From assembly GCF_004300825.1 (NCBI RefSeq), contig NZ_CP036250.1:2846001-2910000 (forward strand): a DNA stretch of 64,000 nucleotides, written 5' to 3'. Below are positions 51,720-64,000 of this stretch, in pieces. Both the position numbers and the translations under genes were made by a program. Each line of letters begins with the position of its first letter. Positions within the stretch are counted from its first letter, which is position 1. Source of the stretch: Egicoccus halophilus. Lineage in GTDB: Bacteria; Actinomycetota; Nitriliruptoria; Nitriliruptorales; Nitriliruptoraceae. The notes beneath the pieces are model-generated. The model saw only the letters and a program-made list of their open reading frames with translations. It searched no databases and was not told the DNA's origin.

Positions 51720-53051
51720 TCAGCCCGTGACGCCGCTGTCGGTGTCGCCCTCGGTCACCCCGTCGACGCCGCTCTCGGTGCCGGGGTCGGAGGTGGTGCC
51801 GGTCTCGGCCTCGTCCTCGAGGTCGAGCCCGGTGTCGGCACCGGCGTCCGGCTCCGAGCCGAGTTCGGCCGCGTCCTGTCCCTCCGTGGCGTCGCCCTCG
51901 TCGTCGGCGCCGTCGGCGCCGTCGGCGGTGTCGGGCAGCAGGACCTCGTCGACCACGTGGATGATGCCGTCGGCGGTCTGGATGTTGGCGCACACGACCG
52001 TCGCACCGTTCTGGGCGGCTTCCACCGAGACGGTGTCGTCGACGGCCGTGACGGTCAACTCGTCGCCGGCTGCGGTCGTGTCGTCGTCGCCCGCGTCGTC
52101 GTCGCCGGCCTGGGCGTCGGCCTGGGTGCCCAGGACGGTGGAGACCGTCTCCTGCTCGACGAGGTCCTGGGCGCTCAGGGCACCCTCGTCGTGGACGTGG
52201 TAGCGCAGGATGTTCACGGTGTTGCCCGTCGTGGCCGCGTCGGGGTCCGTGCCGACCCCGGTGTCGTCGGTCACGCCGGTCTCCCCGGTGTCCGCGTCGT
52301 CCGGGTCGGTGCCGTCGTCGGCCGCGTCCGTCCCCGGATCCTCGGTGGCGACACCTGGCGAGTCGAAGCCGGTGAAGGCCTGGTCGTTGGGGGCGAACAG
52401 GGTGGCCTGAGCACCCTCGAGGTCGATGCCGAGATCCTGCGTGGTCAGCATGCCGGCCAGCTGCGACAGCGCCGGCAATGCCTGCACGACCTCGAGCAGG
52501 GTCATCTCGGCGAGCTGCTCCTCGCCGAACCCACCCGTCGCGCCGGGGTCGGGGTCCGCGCCCGTGCCGTCGTCGGTGTCGGCGGTCGCGTCCTCGTCCC
52601 CGGCGGTGCCACCCGGGTCGTCGGACTCGGTGTCCGCCTCGACCTCGAGGTCGTCGTCGGGGCCGGCCTCGTCGGTGCCGACGATGTCGTCACTGTCGGG
52701 ATCGGTGGCGTCGTCCGCTCCGGGCGCGTCGTCGGTGGTGTCGGCGTCGGCGTCCGTGCCGGCCTCGTCACCGGTCGCGTCGTCGGCCGCACCGTCCGGG
52801 TCGCCCTCGGTCGCGGCCCCGACGCCGCTCTCGGTGTCGGCCGCAGCCAGGATCTCCTGGCACTGGTCGCCGAACACGCCGTCGGGGAGCGCGACCTGCT
52901 CGCTGTCCTCGGGTTCGGTGGTGTCGTCCTGCTCGGTCGGCGTCGTGGTGGTGTCCTGCTCGGCGTCGTCCTGCCCACAGGCAGCCAGCACCAGCGCCGC
53001 GGCGGCACCCGCGGCCAGAGCACGGTGGCCGGATCGGTGGAACGGTCTCAC
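51720..53051 (-). CDS. FAS1 (fasciclin) domain lipoprotein with acidic insertions
   Basis: Lipoprotein of 443 residues: lipobox LVLAAC, then a long Asp/Thr/Gly low-complexity region (to about 165). A fasciclin domain follows: EMTLLEVVQALPALSQLAGML, ATLFAPNDQAFTGF, NILRYHVHDEGALSAQDL, VVCANIQTADGIIHVVDEVLLP. Two Asp-rich stretches interrupt it (after AFTGF and between TQADAQ and ELTVTA), and an acidic tail ends the protein. FAS1 domains mediate adhesion. The insertions look like salt adaptation or calcium-binding loops. Confidence 0.87.
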   Translation of the reverse strand: MRPFHRSGHRALAAGAAAALVLAACGQDDAEQDTTTTPTEQDDTTEPEDSEQVALPDGVFGDQCQEILAAADTESGVGAATEGDPDGAADDATGDEAGTDADADTTDDAPGADDATDPDSDDIVGTDEAGPDDDLEVEADTESDDPGGTAGDEDATADTDDGTGADPDPGATGGFGEEQLAEMTLLEVVQALPALSQLAGMLTTQDLGIDLEGAQATLFAPNDQAFTGFDSPGVATEDPGTDAADDGTDPDDADTGETGVTDDTGVGTDPDAATTGNTVNILRYHVHDEGALSAQDLVEQETVSTVLGTQADAQAGDDDAGDDDTTAAGDELTVTAVDDTVSVEAAQNGATVVCANIQTADGIIHVVDEVLLPDTADGADGADDEGDATEGQDAAELGSEPDAGADTGLDLEDEAETGTTSDPGTESGVDGVTEGDTDSGVTG

Positions 53052-53961: not shown

Positions 53962-54240
53962 TCAGCGACGGACGACGAAACCGTCGAGACCGGCCGGGTC
54001 GACCGGCTCGACCTCGACCTCGGTGACCTCGGCCGCCGGCGGCCCCCCGGTACGGACCCAGGCCTCGATGGCGTCGACCGCGTCGGGCGGACCCTCGAGC
54101 CAGGCCTCGACCGCGCCGTCGGGCCGGTTGGCGACCCAGCCCCGCACGCCCGCGCCGCGGGCTCGACGCTGCGTGCTGACCCGGAAGAACACCCCCTGTA
54201 CCCGGCCGTGGACGGTGAGCCGTCGGGCGACGTCCGCCAT
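53962..54240 (-). CDS. acyP: Acylphosphatase
   Basis: Enzyme of 92 residues hydrolysing carboxyl-phosphate bonds. The phosphate loop and catalytic Arg are in HGRVQGVFFRVSTQ and the catalytic Asn in GWVANRPDGAVEAWLEG. ATG 54240 shares one base with the aldehyde dehydrogenase stop (TGATG), so it is the last gene of the catabolic operon reading leftward. Confidence 0.92.
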   Translation of the reverse strand: MADVARRLTVHGRVQGVFFRVSTQRRARGAGVRGWVANRPDGAVEAWLEGPPDAVDAIEAWVRTGGPPAAEVTEVEVEPVDPAGLDGFVVRR

Positions 54241-55667
54241 CAGCTCAGGATGGCGGAGCGGATCTCGGTCATCTCCAGCACGCTGTAGAGCGGCCCCTCG
54301 CGCGTGTTGCCCGAGTCGCGCGAGCCGCCGTAGGGCATCTGGTCGGCGCGCCAGGTCGGCACGTCGTTGACCACCACCCCGCCGAAGTCGAGCTCCTCGA
54401 TCGCCCGTCGCGCGAGCGCGAGGTCGGTGGTGAAGATGCCGGCGTGCAGGCCGTACCTGGTGTCGTTGGCCGCCTGCAGCGCGTCGTCGACGTCGGCGTA
54501 GGTGGCGACGGCGAGGACCGGGCCGAACACCTCTTCGGCGCAGACCTTCATGTCGCCGGTGACGTCGGTGAGCACGGTGGGGCGCAGCACCCCGGCGTCG
54601 TCGACCTTGCCGCCGGTGACGACCGTGGCACCGGCCTCGACGGCCTCGTCGACCCAGCCCGTCACCCGGTCGCGGGCGTCCTGGTCGATCAGCGCCGACA
54701 CCTGCGTGGTGTCGTCGAGCGGGTCGCCGACCACCAGCGCCTCGACCGCCTCGACCAGCGTGCGCACGAAGTCCGCGGCGACGTCGGCATGCACGAACAC
54801 CCGCTGGGCCGAGATGCACGACTGGCCCGCGTGGGTGTTGCCCGCGGCCGCGATCTTCTTCGCCGCCGCCGCCCAGTCCGCGTCGGGCTGGACGATGACC
54901 GGCGAGTTGTTGCCGAGCTCGAGCGAGACCTTCTTGCGCGGGGCGGCCTGCCGGATGCCCCAGCCCACCCCGGGCGAGCCGGTGAAGGTGATCATCGCGA
55001 CGTCGGGATGCTCGACGAGCTCCGCGCCGACCTCCGAGCCCGAGCCGGTCACCACGTGCAGCCACGAGGCCGGCAGACCGCAACGGGCGAGCAGCAGCTC
55101 GGCGAGCTTGATCCCGGTCAGCGGGGTCTGGTGGGCCGGCTTGAGCACCACCGGGCAACCGGCGGCGATGGCCGGGGCGAGCTTGTGGGCGACGAGGTTG
55201 AGCGGGAAGTTGAACGGCGTGATGGCACCCACGACCCCGATCGGGACCCGCAGACCGAACCCGAGCCGTCCCTCGCCGGCCTCCGAGGCGTCGAGCGGCA
55301 GCACCTCGCCCGAGACGGTGCGACAGGTGGCGGCGGCGAACCGGAACGTCGACACCGCACGGGTCACCTCGACGCGGGCCGTGGTGATCGGCTTGGCCGC
55401 CTCGAGCGCGATGGTGCGGGCGAGGTCGTCGGCGACCTCGTCGTCGGCGAGCAGCTCCGCGGCACGGTCGAGGATCTCCGCACGCCGCCAGGCCGGCAGC
55501 CGGTCCTCCCGTAGCGCCCGCCTGGCCGCCGCCACGGCGCGGTCGACGTGCTCGGCCGTGCAGGCGGGGACCTCGCCGAGCAGTTGCCCGTCGTAGGGCG
55601 CACGGATCTGCATGCCCTGCTCGGCGGTGACGGCCTCGCCGTCGATGCGGACGGGGGTCTGGCTCAT
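54240..55667 (-). CDS. Aldehyde dehydrogenase
   Basis: NAD(P)+-dependent aldehyde dehydrogenase of 475 residues: FNFPLNLVAHK, GSPGVGWGI (coenzyme loop), LELGNNSPVIV with the general base Glu, and catalytic Cys in AGQSCISAQR. It is overlapped by the aminotransferase stop (ATGA) and is probably the partner that oxidises the aldehyde formed by the aminotransferase. Because the operon starts with ring-cleavage genes, an arylacetaldehyde or semialdehyde substrate is inferred. Confidence 0.9.
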   Translation of the reverse strand: MSQTPVRIDGEAVTAEQGMQIRAPYDGQLLGEVPACTAEHVDRAVAAARRALREDRLPAWRRAEILDRAAELLADDEVADDLARTIALEAAKPITTARVEVTRAVSTFRFAAATCRTVSGEVLPLDASEAGEGRLGFGLRVPIGVVGAITPFNFPLNLVAHKLAPAIAAGCPVVLKPAHQTPLTGIKLAELLLARCGLPASWLHVVTGSGSEVGAELVEHPDVAMITFTGSPGVGWGIRQAAPRKKVSLELGNNSPVIVQPDADWAAAAKKIAAAGNTHAGQSCISAQRVFVHADVAADFVRTLVEAVEALVVGDPLDDTTQVSALIDQDARDRVTGWVDEAVEAGATVVTGGKVDDAGVLRPTVLTDVTGDMKVCAEEVFGPVLAVATYADVDDALQAANDTRYGLHAGIFTTDLALARRAIEELDFGGVVVNDVPTWRADQMPYGGSRDSGNTREGPLYSVLEMTEIRSAILS

Positions 55668-56938
55668 GCGGAGTCCTCCACGTCGGTGGTGGCGGTCAGC
55701 GCCCGGTCGAACGCCGCCAGCGCATCGGCGACCTGATCCTCGCTGACCACCAGCGGCGGGATCCACCGGACGGTGCTGCCGAACGGTCCACAGCTCATCA
55801 CGACCACCCGCTCCTCGCGCAACAGGTGCGACAGCAGCGCAGCCGTGCGCACCGGGTCCGGCCGCCCCCCGGCGTCGACGATCTCGGTCGCGAGCATCAG
55901 ACCGACGCCACGGTTCTCGGCGATGGCGGCATGCCGCCCGCGCAGCTGCTCGAGCCCGTCGAGGAACTGCCGGCCACGGGCACGCACGTCGTCGAGGAAA
56001 CCGGGGCCGCTCAGCACGTCGATGGTGGCCAGCGCGGCCGCGCAGCCCATCGGGTTGCCGCCGTAGGTGCCGCCGTGGGACCCGACCGGCCAACGCGCCA
56101 TCAGCTCGGCCGACGCGCCGATGGCGGACATCGGGAACCCCGACGCGATGCCCTTGGCCATCACGAGCACGTCGGGCTGCACGTCGGTGTGCTCGATCGC
56201 GAACAGCGCACCGGTCCGACCGAAGCCGGTCTGCACCTCGTCGGCGACGAACAGGATCCCGTGCGCCCGGCAGCGTTCCGCCAGGCCCTCGAGGAACGCC
56301 CGCGGCGCGGGGACGTAGCCACCCTCGCCGAGCACCGGCTCGATCACGACCGCGGCGACCTCCGACGGGGCGGTCTGCGTCGTGAGCAACAGGTCGAACT
56401 CGCGCAGACAGCGGGCCACCGAGGTGTCGAGGTCCTCACCGGTCACGAACGTGTACGGGAACGGCGCCACCAGCACCCCCGACGGCAGCGGCGCGTGACC
56501 GGCCCGGTAGACCGCCTTGGAGGTCGTCATGGCCATCGTCAGGTGCGAGCGGCCGTGGAAGCTGCCCTGGAACACGACCACGTTGGGCTTCCCGGTCGCC
56601 TGCTTGGCCAGCTTGACCGCCGCCTCGGTGGCCTCCGCACCGGAGTTGGCGAAGAAGAACTGCTCGATGCCAGCCGGCGTGACCTCGGCCAGCCGCGCCG
56701 CGAGCGGCTCGAGCCGGTCGTGCCGGTAACAGTTGACCTGGGCGTGCAGGAACCGGCCCGCCTGCTCCCGGACCGCCTCGACGACCGCCGGATGACAGTG
56801 GCCGGTGTTGGCCACCCCGATCCCGGAGGTGAGGTCGAGGTGGTCGACGCCGTCGACGGTGGTGATCGTCGCGCCCGAGCCGCTGACGACCTGCAGGTCG
56901 GTCAGCTCGAACCAGACGTCGGCCAGATGCGAGTCCAT
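55664..56938 (-). CDS. Class III aminotransferase
   Basis: PLP enzyme of 424 residues. Motifs: ANSGAEATEAAVKLAKQAT, FHGRSHLTMAMT, VVIEPVLGEGGY, ILFVADEVQTGFGRTG and the PLP Lys in VMAKGIASGFP; GSHGGTYGGNP closes the site. Relatives act on 4-aminobutyrate, omega-amino acids or amines with pyruvate or 2-oxoglutarate. ATG 56938 has GGGAG six bases upstream. Linked to an aldehyde dehydrogenase and to ring-cleavage genes, an aromatic amine such as dopamine is a possible donor. Confidence 0.88.
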   Translation of the reverse strand: MDSHLADVWFELTDLQVVSGSGATITTVDGVDHLDLTSGIGVANTGHCHPAVVEAVREQAGRFLHAQVNCYRHDRLEPLAARLAEVTPAGIEQFFFANSGAEATEAAVKLAKQATGKPNVVVFQGSFHGRSHLTMAMTTSKAVYRAGHAPLPSGVLVAPFPYTFVTGEDLDTSVARCLREFDLLLTTQTAPSEVAAVVIEPVLGEGGYVPAPRAFLEGLAERCRAHGILFVADEVQTGFGRTGALFAIEHTDVQPDVLVMAKGIASGFPMSAIGASAELMARWPVGSHGGTYGGNPMGCAAALATIDVLSGPGFLDDVRARGRQFLDGLEQLRGRHAAIAENRGVGLMLATEIVDAGGRPDPVRTAALLSHLLREERVVVMSCGPFGSTVRWIPPLVVSEDQVADALAAFDRALTATTDVEDSA

Positions 56939-56967
56939 GGCGTGCTCCCGGAACACGAGGGGTCCGC

Positions 56968-56987
56968 GTCCCGCCGGCTGGCGGGAC
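56968..56987. other. Perfect 8-bp stem-loop upstream of the aminotransferase
   Basis: GTCCCGCC and GGCGGGAC flank a 4-base loop in the 171-bp gap between the dioxygenase and aminotransferase genes, about 30 bases before the ATG. There is no T-tract. It may mark RNA processing or attenuation inside the operon. Confidence 0.6.
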
Positions 56988-57109
56988 GTGCCGGTTCGGC
57001 CGCCCGCCCGCAGCCAACCGGTCCGGTCGGCGTTCGGCATCGTGCAGGTGGCCAAGGACGGTGCCCGGGACCGCGCCGGATGGCGCAGACGGCCCGGACC
57101 GCGACGCCC

Positions 57110-57985
57110 TCAGGCGGTCCAGCCACCCTCGGGGCGGTCGAACCAGACGTGGACCTGACCGGTGCCGGTCGCGTTCTCGTAGTCGGAGAACCGACGACCG
57201 GGGGCGGTGCAGTCGCGACCGCCGATGGCCGCCGCCATCGCGAGGTAGTGCCCGAAGCCGCCCTCGGGACTGTGGGGGTGGTAGGCGTCCATGCCGTCGA
57301 TCACCCGGGCGTGGTCGCCCGCCTCCATCCAGGCGACGCGCTCCTCGTCGGCCGCCCGCGCCTCGGGCGTGACGATGTGCTTCGGGTCGCTGGCCTCGTG
57401 GTCGGGCAGCGCCTTCAGGCGGTGGAAGGTGTGGCTCATCCCGCCGCTGGCGAGCACCACCACCCGACGGTCGCTGGCGGCGACCGCGTCGCCGATCGCC
57501 TTGCCGAGCGTGAGGAAGTCGTCGTCGTCCCCGGTCTGCACGATCGAGACCGACACGAACTTCTCGCCCCGGTGCAGGTAGTGCACGAGGTTGACGGTCG
57601 CGTAGTAGACCGGCAGGTAGGGGTCGTCGATCGCCGTCGTCGGCGTGCCGTGCTCGTTGCCGTGCTTCTCGATCAGCCGGGCGAGATCGGGGTCGCCGTC
57701 GTAGGCGTAGGGCACCTGGCACATGCCGCGCGGCAGCTCCGACGAGGTCATCTTGCCCTCGCGGTGGTCGTGCGCGGACACCACGTGCTCGACGGTGGTG
57801 AACCAGTGGGTGTCGAGCACCACGATCGTGTCCGGCCGCAACGCGTCGAGCACCTCGTCGCGCAGCCGCACGAGGCCGGGGACCAGCGAGATCTCCTTGC
57901 CCTCGTTGAGCTCCCGCCGCGTCGGCTCGTCGAACATGATGGTGGGGGCGTGCGAGATCAGGCCCGCTCCGACGATCTCACCCAT
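57110..57985 (-). CDS. hpaD: LigB-type extradiol ring-cleavage dioxygenase
   Basis: Non-heme iron(II) dioxygenase of 291 residues, closest in character to class III extradiol enzymes cleaving 3,4-dihydroxyphenylacetate (HpaD type). Metal and acid/base candidates are His12 (LISHAPTIMFDE), the His in VVLDTHWFTTVEH and the His pair in GGMSHTFHRLK. DPYLPVYYATVNL is also conserved in the group. AAGGAGA lies seven bases before ATG 57985. It follows the decarboxylase-like gene by 18 bp. Confidence 0.86.
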   Translation of the reverse strand: MGEIVGAGLISHAPTIMFDEPTRRELNEGKEISLVPGLVRLRDEVLDALRPDTIVVLDTHWFTTVEHVVSAHDHREGKMTSSELPRGMCQVPYAYDGDPDLARLIEKHGNEHGTPTTAIDDPYLPVYYATVNLVHYLHRGEKFVSVSIVQTGDDDDFLTLGKAIGDAVAASDRRVVVLASGGMSHTFHRLKALPDHEASDPKHIVTPEARAADEERVAWMEAGDHARVIDGMDAYHPHSPEGGFGHYLAMAAAIGGRDCTAPGRRFSDYENATGTGQVHVWFDRPEGGWTA

Positions 57986-58003: not shown

Positions 58004-58804
58004 TCAGTCCTGGTAACGGTGGACGGTGGTGCCGCCGGCGAACGTGGCGCCCACCTGGCGGTAGTAGGCACCGAGGATCTCGCGCGGCTGCAGCAGTCCG
58101 AACTCCTCGCCGGGCACGTCGAACAACGTCAGCTCCGCGTTCCCGGTGTAGATCGGGCCGGCTTCGACGGCCACGGTCTTCATCGTGACCAGTTCGTGGA
58201 GCGAGGGCGGGGCGTCGGCGCCCTCGATCGCCGGCAGGAAGCGGCTGTGCAGCATCGCGTGGCTGTTGACGAACCCGCCGGTCTCGGTCGTTCCGGTGAT
58301 GGTGAACCGGGCCTCCGCCAGCCGCCGGTCGTAGGCGGCCAGCGTCGCGCCGAACCGGCCACCGGACTCCAGCCGCGGTCCGGCCTTGCCGTACGCCACC
58401 GGGCGGGTCATGTGGATGGAGCCGAGTTTCTTCGGATAGCCCTGGTAGTGGCCACGCACCATCGAGAAGTCCGAGTCGACCCAGATGTAGGCGCACCGGG
58501 AGTAGTGCTCACCCTGGTGGCGGCCCCGGATGACGAAGAAGACCTCGCGATACTGCGAGCGCACCGGGTCGAGCAGCTCGTCGAACGAGTCCGAGCACGA
58601 CTGCCAGTCGGCCCACACCAGCGCCACCGCGCCGGGGTCGTCGGCCGGCTCGATCGGGTCGGGCAGCAGCTCGACCACCCGGTCGGGATCGGTGCGGTAC
58701 TCGATGGTCAGCAACTCACCGCTGTAGTGCCACGGCGGTGCCGGCAGGATCGACGACCTGCCGGTCGCGGTCCGCGGAAAGACGAAACCCTGCAACTCGG
58801 CCAC
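58004..58804 (-). CDS. Acetoacetate decarboxylase-superfamily protein
   Basis: Protein of 266 residues with the acetoacetate-decarboxylase fold pattern: PPWHYSGELLTIEYRTDP, YREVFFVIRGRHQGEHYSRCAYIWVDSDFSMVRG, YPKKLGSIHMTRP and ETGGFVNSHAML. The Lys in GYPKKLGS is the expected Schiff-base position. The superfamily includes decarboxylases, cyclases and lactonase-like enzymes. First gene of the leftward operon; GTG 58804 has GGGAG five bases upstream. It could perform the decarboxylation or hydration that follows ring cleavage. Confidence 0.82.
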   Translation of the reverse strand: MAELQGFVFPRTATGRSSILPAPPWHYSGELLTIEYRTDPDRVVELLPDPIEPADDPGAVALVWADWQSCSDSFDELLDPVRSQYREVFFVIRGRHQGEHYSRCAYIWVDSDFSMVRGHYQGYPKKLGSIHMTRPVAYGKAGPRLESGGRFGATLAAYDRRLAEARFTITGTTETGGFVNSHAMLHSRFLPAIEGADAPPSLHELVTMKTVAVEAGPIYTGNAELTLFDVPGEEFGLLQPREILGAYYRQVGATFAGGTTVHRYQD

Positions 58805-58847
58805 GAGTGCTCCCTCACGCTCCCGGTGCGTGCCACGAACGAAGAAC

Positions 58848-58863
58848 CGTTCGGCTCCGAACG
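58848..58863. promoter_or_regulatory. Operator-like palindrome 1 (catabolic cluster)
   Basis: CGTTCGG-CT-CCGAACG: 7-bp perfect arms with a 2-bp spacer, 44 bp upstream of the decarboxylase-like gene start on the minus strand. It overlaps a 16-mer shared with 25751-25766. Confidence 0.62.
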
Positions 58864-59004
58864 ATAACCGAAGCACGGGGCCGACCGCCACTGCGCCGTA
58901 CACCGCCTCGGCCCAGGGCGCGCGCCCGGACCCGCGGGTACCTCGTCGGGTCCCCGCCGCACCGCGTGGACGATGCGACAGCCCGACGGCCGCTCAGCGA
59001 CTAC

Positions 59005-59020
59005 CGTTCGGCGCCGAACG
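59005..59020. promoter_or_regulatory. Operator-like palindrome 2 (catabolic cluster)
   Basis: CGTTCGGCGCCGAACG is a perfect 16-bp palindrome with the same arms as palindrome 1. It overlaps a TACCGT -10-like hexamer for the FAH-family gene and runs into a second palindrome, CCGAACGTTCGG (59013-59024). Repression by a dimeric regulator at both divergent promoters is inferred. Confidence 0.65.
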
Positions 59021-59058
59021 TTCGGACGCGCGTGCCGTCGAGGGAGAGCGAGACACCA

Positions 59059-59913
59059 ATGGAGACCCGCCGGATCCTGCTGGAGGGCGCTGCGGTCACG
59101 GCCGTTCGCGACGGCGACGACCTGGTCGCCGGTGACGGTCGGCGCGTCGCGATCGACGACGCGCTGCACCTGCCGCCGGTGGTCCCGGGCAAGATCCTGT
59201 GCGTGCACCTCAACTACCGCTCGCGCGTGGAGGAGTTCGGCACCACCCTGCCTGCCGCGCCGACCTACTTCTCCAAGCCGGTGTCGGCCCTCAACGCCCA
59301 CGAGGGCGCGATCGTGCGCCCCGAACGCTGCCAGTGGCTCAACTACGAGGGCGAGATCGGGATCGTCATCGGCCGCCACACCCGCAACGTGACCCAGGCC
59401 CAGGCCTGGGACGCCATCGCCGGCTACACGGTCGCCAACGACTACGGCCTGCACGACTTCCGCGACACCGACGCCGGGTCGATGCTGCGGGTCAAGGGCT
59501 CCGACACGCTCTGCCCGCTCGGCCCGGGTCTCGTCTCGGCCGACCACTGGGACCCGCGCGACGGCATGCGCATCCGCACGCTGGTCAACGGCGAGGTCCG
59601 CCAGGACGGCAACACCGCCGAGATGGAGTGGGACATGGCCTACCTCGTGGCCGACCTCGCCCGCACCATCAGTCTCGAACCCGGCGACGTGATCCTGTCC
59701 GGCACGCCCGCCAACTCCCGCCCGGTCGGACCCGGCGACGTCGTCGAGGTCGAGGTCGAGGGGCTCGGAACACTGCGCAACCGGATCGTCGCTGGCCCGA
59801 CGGCCATCCGTGAGGACGTCGGCGCCCAACCGACCGAGTCCGAGGAGGTGCGCTCGACCGCTCTGGGTGGAGACTGGGAGTACCGCGGCATCCGCGCCCC
59901 CCGCCGGGACTGA
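59059..59913 (+). CDS. Fumarylacetoacetate hydrolase-family protein
   Basis: Enzyme of 284 residues of the FAH family, with the metal-binding pattern LNYEGEIGIVIGRHTRNV and VANDYGLHDFRD. PTYFSKPVSALNAHEGAIV and VILSGTPANSRPVGPGDVVEVE complete the fold. HpaG/HpcE-type members decarboxylate or isomerise the homoprotocatechuate ring-cleavage product; others act in tyrosine or gentisate degradation. Transcribed away from the decarboxylase/dioxygenase operon, with shared palindromes between them. Confidence 0.88.
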   Translation: METRRILLEGAAVTAVRDGDDLVAGDGRRVAIDDALHLPPVVPGKILCVHLNYRSRVEEFGTTLPAAPTYFSKPVSALNAHEGAIVRPERCQWLNYEGEIGIVIGRHTRNVTQAQAWDAIAGYTVANDYGLHDFRDTDAGSMLRVKGSDTLCPLGPGLVSADHWDPRDGMRIRTLVNGEVRQDGNTAEMEWDMAYLVADLARTISLEPGDVILSGTPANSRPVGPGDVVEVEVEGLGTLRNRIVAGPTAIREDVGAQPTESEEVRSTALGGDWEYRGIRAPRRD

Positions 59914-63254: not shown

Positions 63255-64000
63255 TCAGTCGGTCGAGTCGTCCAGGATCTGCAGGGTCTGGAGATCGGCC
63301 TGGAACTCGAGCGCGAAGTCGCCGCCCTCGCGGCCGATGCCCGAGATGCCGCAGCCACCGAACGGGGCGGTGAGGTCGCGCACCAGGAAGGTGTTGACCC
63401 ACACGGTGCCGGCCCGCACCGCGCGCCCGACGCGTTCGGCGCGCTCACGCGAGGTGGTGTAGACGATGCCCGACAGTCCGTAGGGAGTGGAGTTGGCCAG
63501 CCGTACCGCCTCGGACTCGTCGGCGAAGGTCTGGAAGGTGAGCACGGGACCGAAGACCTCGCGCTGGACGATCTCCGCGTCGTTGGAGGCCGGCTCGATC
63601 AGCGTCGGCTCGTAGAACAGCCCGCCCCCGGCGTGGACGGCGCCTCCGCGCACGATCGTGTCGCCGGCCTCGCGGGCACGCTGCACGAAGCCGTCGACGC
63701 GTGCGAGGTGGTCGGGGTGGATCATCGGCGTGATGGTGGTGTCGTCGGCCCGACTGTCACCGAGCACGTGGGTGTCGGCATGGGCGTGGAACCGTTCGAG
63801 GAAGGCGTCGCGGAGCGACTCGTGCACCAGCAGGCGGGTCCCGGCCAGGCACACCTGACCCGAGTCGTCGTACTGCCACGCCGCCTTCTTCGCGGCGGCG
63901 TCGAGATCGGCGTCCTCGAACACGATCAGCGGGCCCTTGCCCCCGAGTTCGGCCGTGAAGGGCACGATGTTCTCGGCGGCCGCGCGTCCGATGTGACGGG
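63255..64000 (-). CDS. Aldehyde dehydrogenase, 5' end beyond the window
   Basis: C-terminal 248 residues of an aldehyde dehydrogenase; the frame is open to the last base, so the N-terminal half is outside the window. RHIGRAAAENIVPFTAELGG leads into the general-base Glu, GQVCLAGTRLLV holds the catalytic Cys, and REVFGPVLTFQTF the late motif. Together with the ring-cleavage dioxygenase and FAH-family enzyme nearby it is a candidate 5-carboxymethyl-2-hydroxymuconate semialdehyde dehydrogenase (HpaE), but the family is broad. Confidence 0.88.
   Translation of the reverse strand, partial: RHIGRAAAENIVPFTAELGGKGPLIVFEDADLDAAAKKAAWQYDDSGQVCLAGTRLLVHESLRDAFLERFHAHADTHVLGDSRADDTTITPMIHPDHLARVDGFVQRAREAGDTIVRGGAVHAGGGLFYEPTLIEPASNDAEIVQREVFGPVLTFQTFADESEAVRLANSTPYGLSGIVYTTSRERAERVGRAVRAGTVWVNTFLVRDLTAPFGGCGISGIGREGGDFALEFQADLQTLQILDDSTD

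Follow-up and report, generated by a model that had tools for sequence, protein, structure and literature searches.

Two copies of the palindrome CGTTCGG-N2-CCGAACG lie in the 251-bp gap between a leftward ADC/MppR-like gene and a rightward FAH-family gene, which raises the question of whether they are operators and, if they are, which regulator reads them. The evidence set out below predicts that they are almost certainly a genuine operator pair and part of a five-site, six-operon MarR regulon, which would be an ordinary type of bacterial control circuit. The stretch analysed, here called the window, is 64 kb long and comprises bases 2846001–2910000 of a single 3.98-Mb contig; its numbering is also used for features that lie beyond its end.

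The palindrome pair and its copies in the genome

Both copies are exact (Table 1), as the first-pass annotation had stated, and its view of them as paired operator palindromes overlapping −10 elements between divergent catabolic genes is supported by the comparison among species. Two of its details needed amendment. The second copy does run into CCGAACGTTCGG, although the end given for this feature was one base short, and the extra half-site, which relatives do not conserve, is probably incidental. The −10-like element that had been reported for copy 2 alone is present there, and copy 1 has one as well.

Table 1. Features at the palindrome pair and in the proposed regulon, in window numbering
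Feature	Position	Strand	Remarks
Operator 1 (putative), CGTTCGGCTCCGAACG	58848..58863		ADC promoter (− strand); exact motif; kept in relatives' ADC promoters, −10 register constant
Operator 2 (putative), CGTTCGGCGCCGAACG	59005..59020		FAH promoter (+ strand); exact motif; kept in relatives' FAH promoters
−10 box TATCGT, ADC operon promoter (predicted)	58861..58866	−	3-base overlap with operator 1; TANNNT register −3 in 12/12 ADC sites
−10 box TACCGT, FAH promoter (predicted)	59002..59007	+	3-base overlap with operator 2; TANNNT register −3 in 11/11 FAH sites
Extra palindrome CCGAACGTTCGG	59014..59025		Uses right arm of operator 2; present here, not kept in relatives
ADC-superfamily (MppR-like), GTG start, gene 1 of leftward operon	58004..58807	−	Pfam ADC 3.6e-53; MppR 4jm3 1.7e-58; below NCBIfam MppR cut-off
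LigB-family extradiol dioxygenase, HpaD-like	57110..57985	−	Pfam LigB 1.4e-24; nearest solved structure 3,4-dihydroxyphenylacetate 2,3-dioxygenase
Class III aminotransferase	55664..56938	−	Pfam Aminotran_3 1.7e-115, scored on longer reading 55664-57055
Aldehyde dehydrogenase, end of leftward operon	54240..55667	−	Pfam Aldedh 1.1e-148
FAH-family hydrolase/isomerase, HpaG-C-like, under operator 2	59059..59913	+	Pfam FAA_hydrolase 1.8e-62; HpaG-C 205 bits vs cut-off 276
HpaE-like ALDH, end of P450-GS-ALDH set (operator 67579)	63255..64000, continues to 64778	−	Pfam Aldedh 7.3e-144; NCBIfam best HpaE, below cut-off
Candidate MarR regulator	79492-80043 (G000:C1:2925492-2926043)	−	Outside window; downstream of PuuD-like gene

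Exact matches in the window are limited to these two copies, and matches with up to three mismatches are mildly above chance (25 seen vs 16 expected). The whole genome holds three exact matches, all within 15 kb, the third at 73701, slightly beyond the window's end, together with eight one-mismatch matches; among the latter, the copy at 67579 lies in the gap that separates the P450 gene from a divergent glutamine-amidotransferase-like gene, and the copy at 80848 stands ahead of a PuuD-like gene that is followed by a MarR gene. Five of the 11 sites with at most one mismatch thus fall in one 22-kb stretch, all of them intergenic, and the remaining six, all one-mismatch, are in coding sequence. 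An order-2 Markov chance estimate, with composition taken from 114 kb, gives 0.47 exact and 13.5 one-mismatch copies per genome and P ∼0.012 for three or more exact. Copy number alone is mildly unusual and weak evidence; the clustering is strong, at a nominal P ∼2e-9 for an interval that was chosen after the data had been seen. Random occurrence throughout the genome, named beforehand as the outcome that would speak against an operator, is not what the scan found. A literature search for CGTTCGG-N2-CCGAACG returned no description, a weak negative that agrees with the earlier supposition that the site is probably undescribed. The actinobacterial LexA-type SOS box has outward-ordered GAAC-N4-GTTC half-sites, unlike this motif.

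The five sites would serve a split regulon of six operons: ADC–LigB–aminotransferase–ALDH; FAH; P450–GS-like–HpaE-like ALDH; GATase; DUF3156–ALDH; and PuuD-like–MarR. Genes outside the window were called by codon usage, and the GATase1 region and the P450 frame were separated by hand. The closest match of the GS-like protein is glutamate-methylamine ligase, and for the LigB protein the 2-aminophenol dioxygenases come next after the structure given in Table 1. The P450 (L023:2229-3491) scores 422 bits against a structure named CYP125MRCA and 260 bits against natural CYP125. Between DUF3156–ALDH and the PuuD–MarR operon lies an rRNA operon (5S and 23S found; 73899-76523), whose shortened 23S match and missing 16S are due to a 2500-base run of N at 76501-79000 (operon and run together, L023:9899-15000). 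Elsewhere in the window, at 51720-52991, there is a very acidic, Asp-rich predicted secreted protein with a possible fasciclin-like region, as judged by eye.

Conservation at the promoters of one gene set

Across 61 related genomes there are 30 exact matches to the motif and none to the reversed pattern, and 25 of the 30, once their flanks were read, proved to be positioned at promoters of the cluster's gene set. The way in which the cluster is split varies among genomes, and the motif tracks the genes ADC, FAH, P450/GATase1 and PuuD–MarR, and in two cases the HpaE-like ALDH. The ADC gene is found in 17 of the 61 genomes, with FAH distributed nearly in the same way, and the MarR gene is found in 15 of those 17 vs 0 of the other 44 (Fisher 1.9e-12); the exact motif occurs in 13 of the 17 vs 2 of the 44 (3.2e-8), the last two being coding matches. 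In the remaining four ADC genomes, which lack an exact site, ADC or ADC/FAH is accompanied by sites that depart from the motif at one or two bases. In two genomes (G001 and G006), both drafts, 77% and 88% complete, the motif is present and a MarR match is absent. In distant Actinomycetota, MarR orthologues lie inside compact clusters with the same enzymes; these loci were retrieved by searching with MarR, such that its presence there is by design and the neighbouring genes are the informative part. Their upstream regions include 11 with the motif at up to two mismatches, whereas 150 permuted palindromes averaged 0.26 and never exceeded 3, and many of the motif sites take the degenerate form TAT-CGTT-N8-AACG.

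The register of the motif with the predicted −10 is also kept. All 48 sites at matching promoters in 15 related genomes, chosen by gene position and not by −10, have TANNNT, against a mean of 3.8 and a maximum of 13 with shuffled flanks, and since related species are not independent this shows conservation and not 48 separate proofs. Counted from the palindrome's first base with sites oriented to gene direction, the register is mostly fixed for each promoter, at −3 for ADC, FAH and HpaE, +22 to +24 for P450, and +17/+18 or −3 for PuuD. With TANNNT three bases ahead, as at ADC, FAH and HpaE, the palindrome shares bases with the −10 and is expected to cover the start site; with TANNNT 22–24 bases (P450) or 17–18 bases (most PuuD) after its first base, it fills the spacer, and most P450 sites also border a −10 for GATase1 on the opposite strand. 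The motif is therefore held in register with the core promoters of matching genes across species, as would be expected of an operator. No −35 elements were recognizable, a point against the operator reading, and a sigma-70 consensus scan gave no full promoter, an outcome to be expected of those actinobacterial promoters that lack a clear −35.

Each of the two copies looks like an operator in its own right, serving one promoter, rather than half of a cooperative pair. A cooperative or looping arrangement is disfavoured because the spacings between centres (61, 66, 70, 77, 79, 81, 84, 85 and 157 bp) have no helical phase, and because each palindrome stays with its own promoter despite an intervening gene: two genomes of one genus (G001 and G002; L067:994-1752 and L068:8383-9129) have a GNAT-like acetyltransferase gene, absent here, in the ADC–FAH gap, and there ADC and FAH each retain a palindrome of their own, the two being ∼885 bp apart.

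The same comparative data bear on two other readings. It might be argued that palindromes of this kind arise by chance in GC-rich DNA, and the one-mismatch copies do occur genome-wide near the chance rate (8 seen vs 13.5 expected); the clustering, the intergenic placement and the conservation at matching promoters contradict this, and chance, rejected on the comparative data, is left with next to no probability. That the palindromes act as RNA, whether as a terminator, an attenuator or another structured element, is just as improbable. The minus-strand reading of copy 1 was flagged as terminator-like by a pattern scan, yet the palindrome precedes the predicted −10 at most PuuD promoters and at those of P450 and GATase1, and would not be transcribed there, the ground on which this reading was rejected. 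Moreover, Rfam gave no match, and base composition and arms alike are kept as sequence, with no compensatory change seen.

A candidate MarR-family regulator

The regulator had been placed outside the window by the first-pass annotation, a surmise that is borne out, and a candidate can now be named: a MarR protein encoded 21 kb from the pair. There is good reason to believe, from the comparative evidence, that a MarR-family homodimeric repressor, most likely this one, uses the palindromes as its operators. It carries the MarR winged-helix domain (Pfam MarR 56.6 bits vs a cut-off of 24.6; 2.4e-15), and the monomer model (pLDDT 90) has the MarR fold with N- and C-terminal dimer helices and matches many MarR structures, DNA complexes included, the best structural match of the predicted fold being the HpaR–DNA complex 7el3. 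The putative DNA-reading helix TKGTLTGVLDTL is nearly invariant over 16 orthologues whose overall identity is 48–74%, and across those 16 the same holds for TKGTL and most of the helix that comes after TKGTL. The promoter of the MarR operon has the motif with one mismatch here (CGTCCGG) and has it in relatives also, a position that suggests autoregulation. Counting against this particular protein are its distance from the pair, the rRNA operon between its gene and the other sites in this genome, the mismatch in its own site, the two draft genomes that have the motif and no MarR match, and the presence of an Lrp/AsnC gene in the region.

That Lrp/AsnC protein (69998-70456), beside a decarboxylase gene, is the most obvious other regulator for which the palindromes could be operators, since its gene is situated among the sites and many close relatives keep it linked to the cluster. 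We consider this unlikely. At 1e-12, tblastn finds no Lrp match in the distant clusters, in which MarR (the probe, by design) and motif variants persist, and although Lrp autoregulation predicts a motif copy in the decarboxylase–Lrp intergenic region, none is found there in this genome, whereas the PuuD–MarR promoter has one. It is also quite improbable that the same MarR acts from these sites as an activator or dual regulator. In Yersinia pseudotuberculosis, HpaR acts as a repressor at the hpa operon and, from a distant site, as an activator of another promoter (PMC7180172), and at P450, PuuD and GATase1 the −10 follows shortly after the site; however, at ADC, FAH and HpaE the site shares bases with both the −10 and the expected start site, which is a repressor position, and a repressing HpaR site is likewise centred at −8 (PMC7180172).

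With the candidate MarR as a repressor, we infer that a dimer at the palindrome would sit over either the −10 or the spacer with the start site, and so block RNA polymerase, with one operator per promoter at the ADC/FAH pair and with the MarR gene repressing itself. An aromatic or amine pathway intermediate may bind the protein and release it from DNA, which would turn on P450 oxidation, gamma-glutamylation and deglutamylation, aldehyde oxidation, and homoprotocatechuate-like meta-cleavage jointly. The catechol inducers suggested earlier are only a guess.

Relation to known systems and the proposed pathway

The regulator is predicted to work like HpaR, but the curated family model does not count it as HpaR. 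HpaR is the MarR-family repressor of homoprotocatechuate (4-hydroxyphenylacetate) meta-cleavage operons in E. coli W and Yersinia pseudotuberculosis, and it has two operators, one on the −10, the known site having its centre at −8 in the promoter of hpaG1 (PMC7180172). By analogy that site would be a close functional parallel to the ADC and FAH operators, and the likeness extends to the MarR fold, with 7el3 as the closest solved match, and to predicted targets that include HpaD-, HpaE- and HpaG-like enzymes, all of which score below equivalog cut-offs. The candidate, however, reaches 42.5 bits vs the TIGR02337 cut-off of 121.2, its proposed operator is CGTTCGG-N2-CCGAACG where that of HpaR is TTAA-N4-TTAA, and its predicted regulon, divided among several promoters, also takes in P450, GS-like, glutamine-amidotransferase-like and PuuD-like genes. 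PcaV, CouR, HosA and DesR, regulators of aromatic catabolism, belong to the same family, and the first three are among the sequence or fold matches, but identity to them is low and they control other genes.

The Puu pathway (the gamma-glutamylputrescine route) offers the same kinds of enzyme in its GS-like ligase, aldehyde dehydrogenases, PuuD-like hydrolase and class III aminotransferase. The scores are nevertheless far apart (204 bits for the GS-like protein vs 650 for the putrescine enzyme, and 117 vs 266 for the PuuD-like protein), and LigB, FAH and ADC have no place in that route. The E. coli regulator PuuR is not known to belong to the MarR family. Because the pathway enzymes all fall below curated equivalog cut-offs, family membership does not fix the substrate, and an aromatic amine is the best guess. 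In some relatives an amino-acid/amine permease-like gene lies near MarR (L076:9471-10955, the only one of these that was Pfam-tested; L080:693-2192; L091:5281-6726), which fits an amine substrate; none was seen in the cluster of this genome.

In Saccharolobus, MppR-like ADC proteins are co-induced with a phenol meta-cleavage pathway and have been proposed as its aldolase (PMC7820114). Tentatively, and with somewhat more doubt than confidence, the genes here may constitute an undescribed Actinomycetota regulon in which an aromatic amine would be gamma-glutamylated, oxidised by the P450 and ALDHs, ring-opened by LigB and processed by the FAH and MppR-like proteins, with a single MarR sensing an intermediate. 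A literature search for the combination of P450, GS-like, amidotransferase-like, extradiol dioxygenase, FAH and MppR-like genes gave nothing relevant, and the conserved gene set thus points to a degradation route for which no description was found. For a catabolic regulon found repeatedly in Actinomycetota, poorly studied lineages included, the locus provides a specific predicted operator, the identity of a candidate regulator and a list of genes. The operator would make members of the regulon findable by sequence, and the MarR protein is a possible biosensor for the substrate of the pathway.
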